A stretch of DNA of 33,511 bases from Candidatus Roizmanbacteria bacterium RIFCSPHIGHO2_02_FULL_38_11 (GTDB lineage: Bacteria; Patescibacteriota; Microgenomatia; UBA1406; GWC2-37-13). Below, piece after piece: positions 15,357 to 23,045 of this stretch. Both the position numbers and the translations under genes were made by a program. The notes beneath the pieces were generated by a model. It did not search any database and was not told the origin of the DNA. It saw only the letters and a program-made list of their open reading frames with translations. The stretch lies in NCBI GenBank assembly GCA_001788015.1, contig MFZO01000019.1, forward strand, positions 1-33,511, read 5' to 3'. How positions within the stretch are numbered: the first letter of the stretch is position 1; each line of letters begins with the position of its first letter.

Positions 15357-15440
15357 TTATTTAAAAACCTTTTTAGCTTTCAAAAAACCCGCGGAATGCG
15401 GGTTAGGTTTTAAAAAAATAAGAAACTTTCGTTTCTCCAT
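15357..15440 (-). CDS. Leaderless mini-ORF (27 codons) running through the attenuator, HIT operon
   Basis: A 27-residue basic ORF starting MEKRKFLIFLKPNPHSAG and ending AKKVFK. Its ATG is 5 nt after the -10 box, so initiation would be leaderless. It first crosses a hairpin AGAAAC-GAAA-GTTTCT followed by TATTTTTTT, then passes through the GC-rich terminator-like hairpin at 15386-15404, and stops just before the HIT gene in the same frame. Ribosomes translating it would disrupt the terminator. The role as a leader peptide is inference. Confidence 0.5.
   Translation of the reverse strand: MEKRKFLIFLKPNPHSAGFLKAKKVFK
15380..15404 (-). terminator. Intrinsic terminator/attenuator in the HIT operon leader
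   Basis: On the minus strand, AACCCGC-ATTCC-GCGGGTT (15386-15404) is followed by a T-run. It lies between the promoter and the HIT start, inside the mini-ORF, so it would end transcription before the structural genes unless disrupted. Confidence 0.75.
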
Positions 15441-15445
15441 GAAAA

Positions 15446-15474
15446 AGTATATAGACTCTGTCGAAAAAAATCAA
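15446..15474 (-). promoter_or_regulatory. Promoter of the small HIT/large HIT operon
   Basis: Minus strand TTGATT (15469-15474), 17-bp spacer, TATACT (15446-15451), then 5 nt to the mini-ORF ATG at 15440. Confidence 0.65.
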
Positions 15475-15499
15475 TAGATCAAAGTAGATCAATTTTTCG

Positions 15500-17068: not shown

Positions 17069-18625
17069 TTATTCCCACTCCATCGTTGCCGGCGGCTTGG
17101 TAGTAATGTCGTAGACCACACGTGAAACTTCCGGCACTTCGTTGACAATCCGCGTTGATATGTGCTGTAAAACATGGAAAGGGATCTTCGCCCAATCGGC
17201 GGTCATTCGATCTTTTGTCGTATACGCTCTTATTGCCACGATCTCACCGTAAAACCTGCCGTCTCCTTTTATTGCAGTACTTTTAGTGCTTGTGAGGATG
17301 GCAAAATATTGAAAAATCTTATTTTTTAAACCCGCTCTTTCTATTTCATCCATCACAATTCCGTCTGCCTGTTTTAACTTATTTAATCTCTTATCCGTAA
17401 TTTTCCCCAATATTCGGACTGCAAATCCGGGACCAGGGAAAGGTTGTTGATAGATTACCTCTTCCGGAAGTCCTAACTTTTTCCCAATATATCTGACCTG
17501 ATCTGTGTAAAAATAGCGGATCGGCTCAAGCAACTTCAGCTTCATTTTTTTAGGCAGCCCGCCTACATTATGATGCGATTTAATGAGCGCCGCATGTTTG
17601 GTGCTTTTACTGTGAATGAAATCGGCGTAAGTCGTGCCCTGTCCAAGAAATTCAACATTTTTTTGCCTTTTGGCTACTTTTTCGAACAGTCGGACATAAA
17701 GCATCCCTATTGCCTTTCTCTTTTTTTCCGGATCTATAATGTTTTTTAATTTTTTTAGGAAAACATTTTTTACTTTTAACACTTTTGGTTTCATACCAAA
17801 AAGTTTGGGAAAAACCTGGGTTACGTTTTTCAAAGCGTCATCTCTCATCAGTCCGGAATCAACATAAACCGGAATTAGATTGCGATTGATTGACCTGGCG
17901 ATCAAGGCGGCAGCAACAAACGAATCAGTGCCGCCGGATAATGCCATGACTACCTTTTTGTCGCCAACTTTTTCTTTGATGTCATTAACTAAATCTTTGA
18001 TATTGATCTCTCGACTTTCAGGATTTTCCTGGCAGATATTAAGGAAGTTTTTAAGAATTTCCGTTCCGTAGTCGGTGTGCTGGACTTCGGGATGGAATTG
18101 GACTCCGTAGATATTTCTTTTTTCGTCGCCGACAGATGCCGCTTTTATATTTTCACTCGTCGCTAGATAACGAAAACCCGGTGGTATTTTTATTACTTCA
18201 TCACCATGACTCATCCACACTTTAAATTTATCCGGGATATTAACAAATAAGGCAGGCTTAGCCTCGCCGTAGTAAGACGAAGTTCGACTTCGTTCTTTCA
18301 ACTTCGTCGAAACGAAGGCGGGGCCGTACTCTTTGATTTTTGCGGCTATAACTTCTCCTCCCAGCAAATGTACGAGTAATTGCTGCCCGTAACAAATACC
18401 AAGTACGGGGATTTTCAACCCGAATATTTTTTTATCAACGGTTGGAGAATTTTTCCCGTAAACCGATGCCGGTCCGCCTGATAGAATGATTCCTTTTGGC
18501 CGAAGTTTATTTATTTGGTTTATCGCGTCCTCGGGGTCGATAATTGTGCTTTTTACTCCCATCTCGCCCATTCTACGGAATATGAGATGAGTCGTTTGTG
18601 AACCGAAGTCGATGATTATGATCAT
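17069..18625 (-). CDS. guaA: GMP synthase (glutamine-hydrolysing)
   Basis: Converts XMP, ATP and glutamine to GMP. It has 518 residues from the ATG at 18625, which overlaps the upstream stop as ATGA; an in-frame upstream start at 18658 is less likely. The class I amidotransferase domain comes first: GICYGQQL with Cys 78, and FHPEVQHTD with His 178 and Glu 180. The ATP pyrophosphatase domain has the P-loop ALSGGTDSF (about 229-236), and the C-terminal dimerisation/XMP-binding domain ends TTKPPATMEWE, the normal terminus. Between EYGPA and ALFVNIP (about 103-123) a Lys/Arg/Ser-rich stretch is encoded by a palindromic DNA sequence and looks like an in-frame insertion. Operon with the Xpt-like gene. 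Confidence 0.97.
   Translation of the reverse strand: MIIIIDFGSQTTHLIFRRMGEMGVKSTIIDPEDAINQINKLRPKGIILSGGPASVYGKNSPTVDKKIFGLKIPVLGICYGQQLLVHLLGGEVIAAKIKEYGPAFVSTKLKERSRTSSYYGEAKPALFVNIPDKFKVWMSHGDEVIKIPPGFRYLATSENIKAASVGDEKRNIYGVQFHPEVQHTDYGTEILKNFLNICQENPESREINIKDLVNDIKEKVGDKKVVMALSGGTDSFVAAALIARSINRNLIPVYVDSGLMRDDALKNVTQVFPKLFGMKPKVLKVKNVFLKKLKNIIDPEKKRKAIGMLYVRLFEKVAKRQKNVEFLGQGTTYADFIHSKSTKHAALIKSHHNVGGLPKKMKLKLLEPIRYFYTDQVRYIGKKLGLPEEVIYQQPFPGPGFAVRILGKITDKRLNKLKQADGIVMDEIERAGLKNKIFQYFAILTSTKSTAIKGDGRFYGEIVAIRAYTTKDRMTADWAKIPFHVLQHISTRIVNEVPEVSRVVYDITTKPPATMEWE
18261..18324. repeat. Palindromic element inside guaA
   Basis: Outer arms GCCTCGCC (18261-18268) and GGCGGGGC (18317-18324), with one G-T pair, enclose two hairpins, ACGAAGT-tcg-ACTTCGT and CTTCGT-cgaa-ACGAAG. 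It encodes about 20 residues in a loop of the amidotransferase domain that is not conserved in GuaA. The reading frame is intact. Confidence 0.6.
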
Positions 18626-19365
18626 TGTGTTAACCCATTTTTTCTTAAAGACAACCAATGGGGAATCCCTTTAATCTGTATTCTACCTGGTTGCATATTT
18701 TCGATATCCAAAACTGGATGAACACGAAAAACACCCGCACTTAACACCTGATTACGACCTCCATACTTTGATTTTTCAATAGCGTAACCAAATCCTACTA
18801 AACTGGACCCTGCTTGTTGTGTGATTGCTATTAAGTTTTGACTTTTTCTACCAGTATCTAAAAAGTCATCAATAGCAACACCTCGTTGATCAGCTGGTAT
18901 ACAGTTTCCTGATGCTGTCATCGGTTCTGCTTTACCGGTAGTATAAGAATATGAAGCTGTAGTCAAAATCGGTGCATCATTAAAAGTAATAGGTGCAGTT
19001 CTTTGGGTATAGATTAACGGAATATTTCCAAGATGGATAGCTACGGCAAATGCTGGACTTATGCCTGAACTTGGCGCAGTCAAAACAAATTCTGGTTGTA
19101 GATCACGTACTGCATTAGCTATCTCTTCACCAATTATCATCATTAGTGAAATGTCGACTCGGTGGTTTAAGAACTGCTTTACGTCTAAAACCATCACTTC
19201 ACCAGATTCTGTCTTTATAGCGAATACTCTTCCGTAACGAATTATATTTTCAGTTAATAAACGCGCTGCTGGAGTTAATGCTTCATTTCCTATAACAAAA
19301 TCCAATGAATCTTCCAAACTAAGTATTGTGCCTGGTTGAATAACTTTTGTTTCGTCTCCTCTCAT
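18622..19365 (-). CDS. Xpt-like purine phosphoribosyltransferase
   Basis: Type I phosphoribosyltransferase, 247 residues, similar in layout to Bacillus xanthine phosphoribosyltransferase: VLDVKQFLNHRVDISLMMIIGEE (about 59-81), APSSGISPAFAVAIHLG, IPLIYTQRTAP, and the PRPP-binding motif VAIDDFLDTGRKS (163-175), then IEKSKYGGR. It probably converts xanthine (or another purine base) with PRPP into the nucleotide. It is about 55 residues longer at the N-terminus than Xpt. It overlaps guaA by 4 nt; XMP made here would be the substrate of GuaA, a strong functional link. The leader carries a consensus promoter, a 15-codon mini-ORF and a terminator. No purine riboswitch aptamer was recognised. Confidence 0.85.
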   Translation of the reverse strand: MRGDETKVIQPGTILSLEDSLDFVIGNEALTPAARLLTENIIRYGRVFAIKTESGEVMVLDVKQFLNHRVDISLMMIIGEEIANAVRDLQPEFVLTAPSSGISPAFAVAIHLGNIPLIYTQRTAPITFNDAPILTTASYSYTTGKAEPMTASGNCIPADQRGVAIDDFLDTGRKSQNLIAITQQAGSSLVGFGYAIEKSKYGGRNQVLSAGVFRVHPVLDIENMQPGRIQIKGIPHWLSLRKNGLTQ

Positions 19366-19390: not shown

Positions 19391-19417
19391 TAAAAAAATC
19401 GGCCGCAGAGGCCGATT
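19391..19417 (-). terminator. Intrinsic terminator/attenuator before xpt-guaA
   Basis: Minus strand AATCGGCC-tctgc-GGCCGATT (19397-19417) followed by a run of T. It lies downstream of the xpt promoter, 26 nt before the start codon. The mini-ORF stop overlaps its first bases. Confidence 0.8.
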
Positions 19418-19463
19418 AGATTTTATAGAAAAAATAATTCGCAAGGATTTTAATCCTTACCAT
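19416..19463 (-). CDS. Leaderless mini-ORF (15 codons) before xpt-guaA
   Basis: Encodes MVRIKILANYFFYKI. The ATG is 5 nt after the -10 box, and the TAA stop (19416-19418) overlaps the 5' base pairs of the terminator stem. A ribosome at the stop would cover that arm and favour read-through. The mini-ORF contains its own hairpin AAGGATT-AA-AATCCTT and a T-run. Leader-peptide function is inferred from position only. Confidence 0.5.
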   Translation of the reverse strand: MVRIKILANYFFYKI

Positions 19464-19468
19464 GTTTT

Positions 19469-19496
19469 ATTTTATATATTTAACAAATCGTGTCAA
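19469..19496 (-). promoter_or_regulatory. Promoter of the xpt-guaA operon
   Basis: Minus strand perfect TTGACA (19491-19496), 16-bp spacer, TAAAAT (19469-19474). It starts directly after the stop of the upstream kinase gene and upstream of the terminator, so the hairpin is within the xpt transcript. Confidence 0.75.
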
Positions 19497-19518
19497 TATG
19501 TTAAAGTGGATCAAAAGC

Positions 19519-22161: not shown

Positions 22162-22895
22162 ATCCTACATCTGGAAACTAGACTCATTATTCTTTGAGCT
22201 GAAAATCGGGCCATTTGGCTATTTTGTGGAATCGTCTTCCAGTCAACTTCTGGACCGTAAAATCTACTCAAATTCCTTTGAGTAATTTGTGAAGGATATA
22301 TATCTCCATTATCTTCGACCCATAATCCTCTTCTCCCTAATTGAAAATATAAATAGGGGTGGCCAGTATAAAATTGAGCGACTTCGGTTGCAGGATTCTC
22401 GTCACTATCAACATTACCAGTCATCTCCAAAATACCTTCATTTACCCGCAAAGCATCTTCCATATATCGAATAAGATCGAATCCGTCTGCGCTCACTAAG
22501 TGTGCATGTAAGTGATAGACAGATTGAACTTTAGATTCCTCATAGCCTAATTCCGGCAATCCTCCACCGTGTTCGGCATAAAGAAATTTAGTACCAAATT
22601 CCTGCTCTAATCTACGCATAATCCACCCTACATCATGAACAAGTTGCAAAGATCCGTTGGCAGCTTCACCGTATGCCAGTTTGTGATCTTTTGGAATCAT
22701 TAAAAAATGTAATCCTCCTGGGTGAACAGGTACTAAGTCGGGTTTAACTAATAAAGTCTCCGTTTCGATAACAGGCATTAGATCTAAACGGGAAGGCAAT
22801 CCGTAGTCTGGAAAATGTCGCGTGTACTCTTCTGGAAGATTTTCAGGATGACAGAATAAACAACCTCCTATTTCACTTTTACCTCTATTAGACAT
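22158..22895 (-). CDS. Large HIT-family protein, paralogue of 14078-14815
   Basis: 245 residues, the same length as its paralogue. The N-terminal CLFC pair is followed by a long ~50-residue segment, HFLMIPKDHKLAYG, YAEHGGGLP and the triad YHLHAHLVSAD. The C-terminal module GHPYLYFQLGRRGLWVEDNGDIYP, SQITQRNLSRFYG, VDWKTIPQNS and AQRIMSLVSRC matches the other large HIT protein block by block, so the module is conserved and likely functional. First structural gene of an operon with the small HIT gene; the leader has promoter, mini-ORF and terminator-like hairpin. Substrate unknown. Confidence 0.87.
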   Translation of the reverse strand: MSNRGKSEIGGCLFCHPENLPEEYTRHFPDYGLPSRLDLMPVIETETLLVKPDLVPVHPGGLHFLMIPKDHKLAYGEAANGSLQLVHDVGWIMRRLEQEFGTKFLYAEHGGGLPELGYEESKVQSVYHLHAHLVSADGFDLIRYMEDALRVNEGILEMTGNVDSDENPATEVAQFYTGHPYLYFQLGRRGLWVEDNGDIYPSQITQRNLSRFYGPEVDWKTIPQNSQMARFSAQRIMSLVSRCRI

Positions 22896-22917
22896 CTAAT
22901 TGGTTCATAAATTTTAT

Positions 22918-22948
22918 ATAAAAAAACCGCCCGAATGTTTGGGCGGTT
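22918..22948 (-). terminator. Intrinsic terminator/attenuator before the large HIT gene
   Basis: Minus strand AACCGCCC-aaacattc-GGGCGGTT (22925-22948) followed by TTTTTTTATA. It lies between the mini-ORF and the HIT start at 22895. Confidence 0.8.
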
Positions 22949-22973: not shown

Positions 22974-23045
22974 TTAAATAAAAAAATAAATTTTATCTTG
23001 GTATTCATAATTTTTTTTAAAAAAATACTCCAACTTCTGGAGCAT
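22974..23045 (-). CDS. Leaderless mini-ORF (23 codons) before the large HIT gene
   Basis: A 23-residue ORF, MLQKLEYFFKKNYEYQDK followed by a hydrophobic IYFFI end, rich in Tyr and Phe. ATG 23045 is 7 nt after the -10 box. It contains an early hairpin CTCCA-gaagt-TGGAG followed by TATTTTTTT. It ends about 25 nt before the terminator hairpin at 22925-22948. Whether it is translated is unproven. Confidence 0.45.
   Translation of the reverse strand: MLQKLEYFFKKNYEYQDKIYFFI

Follow-up and report, generated by a model that had tools for sequence, protein, structure and literature searches.

How members of the Candidate Phyla Radiation (CPR) regulate their genes is little known, and most of them lie beyond ordinary genetics. 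The xpt-guaA locus raises the question of whether such a bacterium controls nucleotide genes through a very short reading frame that opens next to a promoter and closes on a terminator. The window, that is, the whole stretch of 33,511 nucleotides analyzed here (positions 1-33511), lies on contig 19 of a genome of 1.24 Mb on 51 contigs. Genes of this genome were called by script on all contigs, and the scan of the relative G037, used for comparison, covers 714 kb.

Architecture of the xpt-guaA leader

All elements of the leader lie on the minus strand. A -35 hexamer TTGACA (19491..19496) and a -10 hexamer TAAAAT (19469..19474), separated by a 16-nt spacer, match 11 of 12 consensus bases; the scanned half contains two promoters that match this well. 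Five nucleotides (aaaac) after the -10 hexamer, an ATG (19463-19461) opens the leaderless mini-ORF MVRIKILANYFFYKI, which has 15 codons (19416..19463). Its TAA stop shares 2 nt (stop position +2) with the stem of an intrinsic terminator, AATCGGCC-tctgc-GGCCGATT (19397..19417; dG about -12), and the stem is followed by a U-tract (19392..19396). Since the stem itself ends in TT, the terminator has a run of 7 T, two of them within the stem. The first structural gene, xpt (18622..19365), starts at ATG 19365, 26 nt downstream of the T run, and encodes a xanthine phosphoribosyltransferase-like protein of 247 aa (NCBIfam; best match the XPRT structures 2fxv/1y0b, 6e-26). It is accompanied by guaA (17069..18658, minus strand), whose identity as GMP synthase is certain (NF000848, 645.6 bits). 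The coordinates of promoter, mini-ORF, terminator and structural gene in the initial annotation hold throughout, and the overlap of stop and stem supports its proposal that a ribosome at the mini-ORF stop would occupy the terminator arm.

Two further elements lie inside the mini-ORF. A small hairpin, GTAAGGATTAAAATCCTTGC, directly follows the ATG (19441..19460, minus strand; -9.6 kcal/mol, z = -3.2) and is a possible pause or loading gate. Between this hairpin and the terminator lies a U-rich stretch, ATTATTTTTTCTA (19426..19438, minus strand), a candidate UTP-sensitive pause. U-runs reach 6 (P = 0.09) and 5 (P = 0.03) in the two xpt leaders, those of the window and G037; they are modestly enriched among leaders of the same plan and missing from some of them.

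An operator-like element, TTGATCcACTTTaAcaTATTGACA, overlaps the xpt -35 hexamer (19491..19514, minus strand). Its pattern, TTGATCyaCTTTrAycTaTTGACA, spans the -35 of xpt (19491-19514), of the HIT-1 operon (15469-15492) and of a gene for a secreted-protein-like product (C39 77174), and each of these promoters is followed by a leader terminator. These are the three matches with at most 3 mismatches in 1.24 Mb, and the element is not conserved in the G037 xpt leader; a shared operator was therefore rejected as the key to these leaders. A purine riboswitch was rejected as well, since no Rfam family matched at gathering score in the window, a permissive scan of the leader returned sub-threshold matches to other families, and the leader is too short to house both a purine aptamer and an expression platform.

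Conservation of the xpt leader

The xpt gene is rare in this lineage. It occurs in 2 of 83 genomes of the order, with distant versions in 2 more among 380 genomes of the phylum, and scanning 84,980 species by pattern returned only G037 plus one distant xpt match. The phylum sample yielded only distant PRTases, none with a comparable leader. The sole close orthologue found, in G037, shares 60% identity, and its leader retains both the ORF and the terminator hairpin whose comparison had been suggested: TTGACA-17-TACCAT-atctc-ATG ATT TGG CAA ACA AGG TAA, after which AATCGGCC-ttaac-GGCCGATT-TTTTA forms the terminator immediately upstream of xpt. The promoter and the ATG are kept, as are the 5-nt spacing and a stem identical to that of the window, while the ORF has 6 codons, stops at -8 relative to the stem and encodes another peptide, MIWQTR. 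The small 5' hairpin is missing from the G037 leader. In the two xpt leaders, the AUG lies 29-46 nt from the terminator.

Leaders of the same plan at other operons

According to the initial annotation, the same plan recurs at two HIT operons of the window. Both leaders exist, but their geometry differs. At HIT-1 (minus strand; promoter 15474), the leaderless mini-ORF MEKRKFLIFLKPNPHSAGFLKAKKVFK (27 codons, 15357..15440, ATG at 15440) crosses the terminator AACCCGCATTCCGCGGGTT (15386..15404), which lies inside it, and ends 12 nt before the HIT-1 ATG (15344). At HIT-2 (minus strand; promoter 23080), the mini-ORF MLQKLEYFFKKNYEYQDKIYFFI (23 codons, 22974..23045, ATG at 23045) starts 7 nt past the -10 and stops 25 nt short of the stem of the terminator AACCGCCCAAACATTCGGGCGGTT (22925..22948). 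Both terminators were identified in the terminator scan.

Outside the window, the plan is kept in the orthologous leaders of HIT-1 in G004 (L157) and of HIT-2 in G047, G044, G082 and G002 (L093, L094, L096 and L098). In all five genomes, the HIT leader consists of a -10, exactly 5 nt, an ATG, a short ORF and a terminator. A UPRTase-like gene, present in the own genome and in G003, also follows the plan, with 12 nt between -10 and ATG. With two G037 leaders added, UMP-kinase-like and rplC, the class comprises 13 leaders. The distance from -10 to ATG is 5 nt in 8 of the 13; among 51 ordinary short-UTR genes, 2 show this distance (P = 1e-5, with relatedness ignored). In 11 of the 13, the ORF closes at most 14 nt ahead of the stem (stop positions from -12 on) or runs past it, where shuffles expect 8.0 (P = 0.04, again ignoring relatedness), so the openness of the mini-ORFs up to the terminator is only weakly above that of shuffles. 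A small hairpin like that of xpt is present in the HIT-1, HIT-2 and rplC leaders (strong in four leaders) and missing from others; a universal 5' hairpin was therefore rejected as a hallmark of the class and not made a defining feature.

Several HIT leaders have additional features. In the HIT operons of G044, G002 and G004 (L094, L098 and L157), a putative second, tandem attenuator is found, whose ORF ends with Pro-stop about 6 nt before the terminator; the three share a block, CCCGTA(G/A)AGCGCACCCGCC, which resembles a tRNA D-arm/anticodon-arm stretch. Past the HIT-2 terminator of the window, a 6-codon ORF encoding MNQLDV (22888-22908, minus strand) overlaps the annotated HIT-2 start (ATGTCTAA), an arrangement that possibly reflects termination-reinitiation coupling. 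In G082 (L096), the stop of the leader ORF and the start of HIT share an ATGA.

Leaderless starts as the genomic default

The initial annotation regarded a leaderless leader ORF, on which the ribosome loads at +1, as a sign of a different mechanism. The genomic context does not support this. TATAAT-like boxes are most frequent 6-7 nt upstream of the ATG in both the own genome and G037, and Shine-Dalgarno motifs are enriched in neither, though both carry the anti-SD GGATCACCTCC. In a blind promoter search, 51 of 121 divergent genes with strong promoters had their ATG 4-14 nt past the -10. Leaderless or near-leaderless starts are, as judged from these sequence features, the default in this genome, so a leaderless mini-ORF is the expected form of a leader ORF here and its start type is not exotic; the canonical His attenuators of the clade are leaderless too. 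The xpt mini-ORF AUG lies at the expected 5' end of the transcript or 1-2 nt from it.

Canonical amino-acid attenuators of the clade

The genome-wide terminator scan showed that many intergenic terminators of the own genome and of G037 sit in 5' leaders. Some belong to textbook attenuators with leaderless or near-leaderless ORFs, which contain the codon runs HHH, HYHH, VLLI and FFFF in the own genome and VIGILLI, FYFYFY and ETFFFSS in G037. The HHH leader (C31 48161, L062, in the own genome; also L147 and L149-L155) precedes a DapF/histidine-racemase-like gene, assigned by its structure relatives, and is kept in 9 of 9 orthologous loci for which upstream sequence is present. The His codons form the C-terminus of a small, presumably TrpR/YerC-like upstream protein in G035 and G037. 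In these canonical leaders, the ORF stops 21-53 nt before the stem, and the 5' arm of the terminator has a region 2 that pairs with it over 5-8 bp (13 of 17 leaders with P <= 0.014). Two paralogous proteins of 477 and 479 aa (C31 33084 and 38519, L061) carry a VLLI leader on one gene and an FFFF leader on the other, both with antiterminators; the proteins have no Pfam match and no relatives in the order.

The S10-operon leader

The S10-operon L3 gene, rplC, served to test how widely such leaders occur, and it has a leader terminator in 22 of 31 loci. The conserved leader was noted in the own genome (L059, on the minus strand of C19 at about 95.1-95.3 kb, beyond the window), in G037 (C8 130621) and at L188-L217. 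The terminator core, CCCCAATCTGGGG / CCAATCTG, is conserved, as is an upstream C[AG]GATTGG that can pair with the core; no Rfam family matched this leader. The leaderless ORFs are mostly of 10-18 codons and unrelated in sequence across loci. Nevertheless, they stop 3-17 nt before C[AG]GATTGG in 17 of 18 cases, where 3.75 are expected (P = 2.6e-11, relatedness ignored). The stop lies about 20-50 nt before the terminator. By its layout, the rplC leader looks like a ribosome-sensing attenuator. The rplC leaders are also the best evidence that leaderless mini-ORFs of this clade are probably translated and would matter by position rather than by peptide.

A model for the xpt-guaA leader and its alternatives

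We lean, by a modest degree, towards the view that translation of the leaderless mini-ORF controls transcription attenuation in the xpt-guaA leader: a prompt ribosome would block folding of the terminator. The parts, their order, spacing and conservation are read from the sequence; the events that would connect them are as follows. The transcript would begin at the A of the mini-ORF AUG. A ribosome would load on the emerging 5' end and translate 6-27 codons, depending on the leader, close behind RNA polymerase. At the stop, or in crossing the stem, it would cover the terminator arm, allowing the polymerase to enter xpt-guaA; failing timely translation, the hairpin would fold and an RNA of about 70 nt would be released. 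The small hairpin and the U-rich stretch may provide a pause for the ribosome to catch up within 46 nt. That the plan is kept in relatives makes it look like a switch that needs immediate ribosome loading.

The amino-acid identity of the peptide would not be the signal. Likely signals would be those that set ribosome loading or polymerase pausing: initiator tRNA, ribosome supply, ppGpp or, as in pyrBI, NTP levels. An NTP signal would fit the gene set (xpt, guaA, UPRTase-like and UMP-kinase-like genes), and initiator tRNA and ppGpp would agree with what is known biochemically about initiation on leaderless mRNAs (PMC9031893).

Translation would turn these genes on, the opposite sign to that of the canonical attenuators of the clade and of the S10-operon leader. 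In Escherichia coli, shifting the stop from 28 to 5 bp before the terminator cuts termination from about 90% to less than 10%, and a stop more than 27 nt before the terminator gives full termination (PMC4824070). Given this distance effect, opposite signs are expected for the xpt class, whose stops lie mostly on or past the stem, and for the canonical leaders, whose stops lie 21-53 nt away.

Several observations speak against the blocking model. In the window HIT-2 and G037 rplC leaders, 25-28 nt separate the stop from the downstream stem, a distance at which, judged by the E. coli data, a ribosome would not block it. The weak excess of open mini-ORFs over shuffles and the lack of peptide conservation also count against it. 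A spacing of 5 nt between -10 and ATG is at the short end, and a +1 at the usual 6-7 nt would fall on U or G and remove the AUG. Moreover, the AUG-to-terminator distance of the xpt leaders is merely 29-46 nt, hairpin and U-run are not universal, and there is a single close orthologue.

The strongest competitor, to which we give a minor but appreciable chance, is a translation-independent leader. It would yield a short RNA (an sRNA or premature transcript), readthrough would be governed by an RNA-binding protein or by NTPs acting at initiation or pausing, or be constitutive, and the ATG would be an initiator sequence or an accident. The promoters at C39 77174 and C47 89524, which have the same or a similar operator-like element and then a terminator but no ATG, are consistent with this reading, as are the rpoB and typA leaders of G037, which have terminators without a mini-ORF, and the strength of the small 5' hairpin of xpt. 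However, the 5-nt ATG recurs in several families and genomes and would be needless for an initiator, and the His and rplC mini-ORFs of the clade are clearly placed for translation.

It is less probable still that the terminator closes the uridine-kinase operon upstream and that xpt has its own leaderless promoter downstream. A udk-like gene does end 102 nt upstream on the same strand, and a TATAAA at -14 of xpt sits where the leaderless -10 boxes of this genome sit. This box has no -35, however, and the gap of 8-31 nt between stem and structural-gene ATG in many class leaders leaves too little room for a promoter. Furthermore, the genes upstream of G037 xpt and of HIT-2 are divergent; the G037 terminator thus cannot serve an upstream operon and can act only on a transcript begun there, and the HIT-2 terminator can act only on a transcript from the intergenic region.

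A classical attenuator that senses Phe/Tyr through YFFY codons is very improbable. YFFY does occur within MVRIKILANYFFYKI, YFF occurs twice in the HIT-2 peptide, and the genome has real FFFF and HHH leaders, yet AT-rich DNA yields F/Y codons by chance. MVRIKILANYFFYKI and MIWQTR have nothing in common and no conserved run of regulatory codons. In neither xpt leader does any segment pair with the 5' arm of the terminator over more than 4 bp (P = 0.38 and 0.28), no region-2 complement to this arm was found in the class leaders (P = 0.21-1.0), and the stop is too near the terminator. Because the peptide is not conserved and an antiterminator is missing, the leader is not a classical amino-acid attenuator, and a Phe/Tyr-sensing leader is largely refuted. 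The earlier proposal of a leader-peptide attenuator thus survives as an attenuator-like leader with a leaderless mini-ORF, but not in its classical, peptide-sensing sense.

Chance juxtaposition of promoter, ORF and terminator, to which the frequency of promoter-like matches in the region (54 vs 51 in shuffles) would lend itself, is for practical purposes refuted by the G037 xpt leader. Across the xpt and HIT leaders, promoter, spacing and stem are kept across genera, and in the blind search most leaders with a strong promoter have an ATG 5-14 nt downstream of its best match. As had been argued from the recurrence, the plan at HIT in five other genomes and at the UPRTase-like pair and its preferred 5-nt spacing also speak against chance.

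Beyond the blocking model for xpt-guaA, we tentatively propose a broader scheme, which we hold to be rather less probable than that model. This Roizmanbacteria-type order of Patescibacteria may use leaderless AUG mini-ORFs without conserved peptide as ribosome gates of two signs, open for xpt-guaA, HIT and UPRTase-like genes and shut for rplC, where a ribosome finishing the mini-ORF would cover the antiterminator and turn the operon off. The two would form a joint system that directly senses ribosome or initiation capacity, alongside the canonical amino-acid attenuators, which are leaderless too.

Comparison with known systems

The xpt gene of Bacillus subtilis is controlled by a purine riboswitch and PurR. 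The same gene family would be regulated here, with no riboswitch match at gathering score in the leader. Like trp/his-type attenuators, the xpt leader places a promoter, a short leader ORF and an intrinsic terminator before an operon; unlike them, it has neither sensor codons nor a region 2:3 antiterminator, and its stop lies on the terminator, whereas theirs is placed well upstream.

Leaderless polycysteine sORF attenuators are known from mycobacteria (Canestrari 2020, as cited in PMC9031893 and PMC13236596). As far as these citing accounts describe them, they resemble the present leaders in placing a leaderless short ORF, as a regulatory element, ahead of an operon, in organisms where leaderless mRNAs are common. 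They differ from the xpt leader in that their Cys codons sense and downstream translation is controlled, whereas the xpt leader has no codon run and an intrinsic terminator.

The closest plan is that of E. coli pyrBI, where a short ORF also runs into or through a terminator before nucleotide genes and a close-following ribosome prevents termination; the U-rich stretch upstream in pyrBI has a candidate counterpart in the xpt leaders. The pyrBI attenuator has an SD-led ORF of about 44 codons, and the leaders described here are leaderless and have 6-27 codons. The likeness is drawn from the sequence plan, and a UTP response like that of pyrBI may apply to the xpt leader. The pyrBI leader gene measures 135 bp (PMC4824070).

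Leaderless regulatory ORFs (in mycobacteria) and ribosome-blocked terminators (in E. coli) are thus already known, and our search, which covered part of the literature, found no description of such leaders in CPR bacteria. The xpt leader is real and conserved, but of greater interest than this single case is the broader group of leaders to which it belongs. If the model is true, these bacteria, which show no Shine-Dalgarno preference, run transcription attenuation from leaderless mini-ORFs, which would provide a direct read-out of translation capacity and turn ordinary MAG leaders into testable regulatory modules. A leaderless start need then not prevent ribosome-polymerase coupling, even within 50 nt of the promoter.
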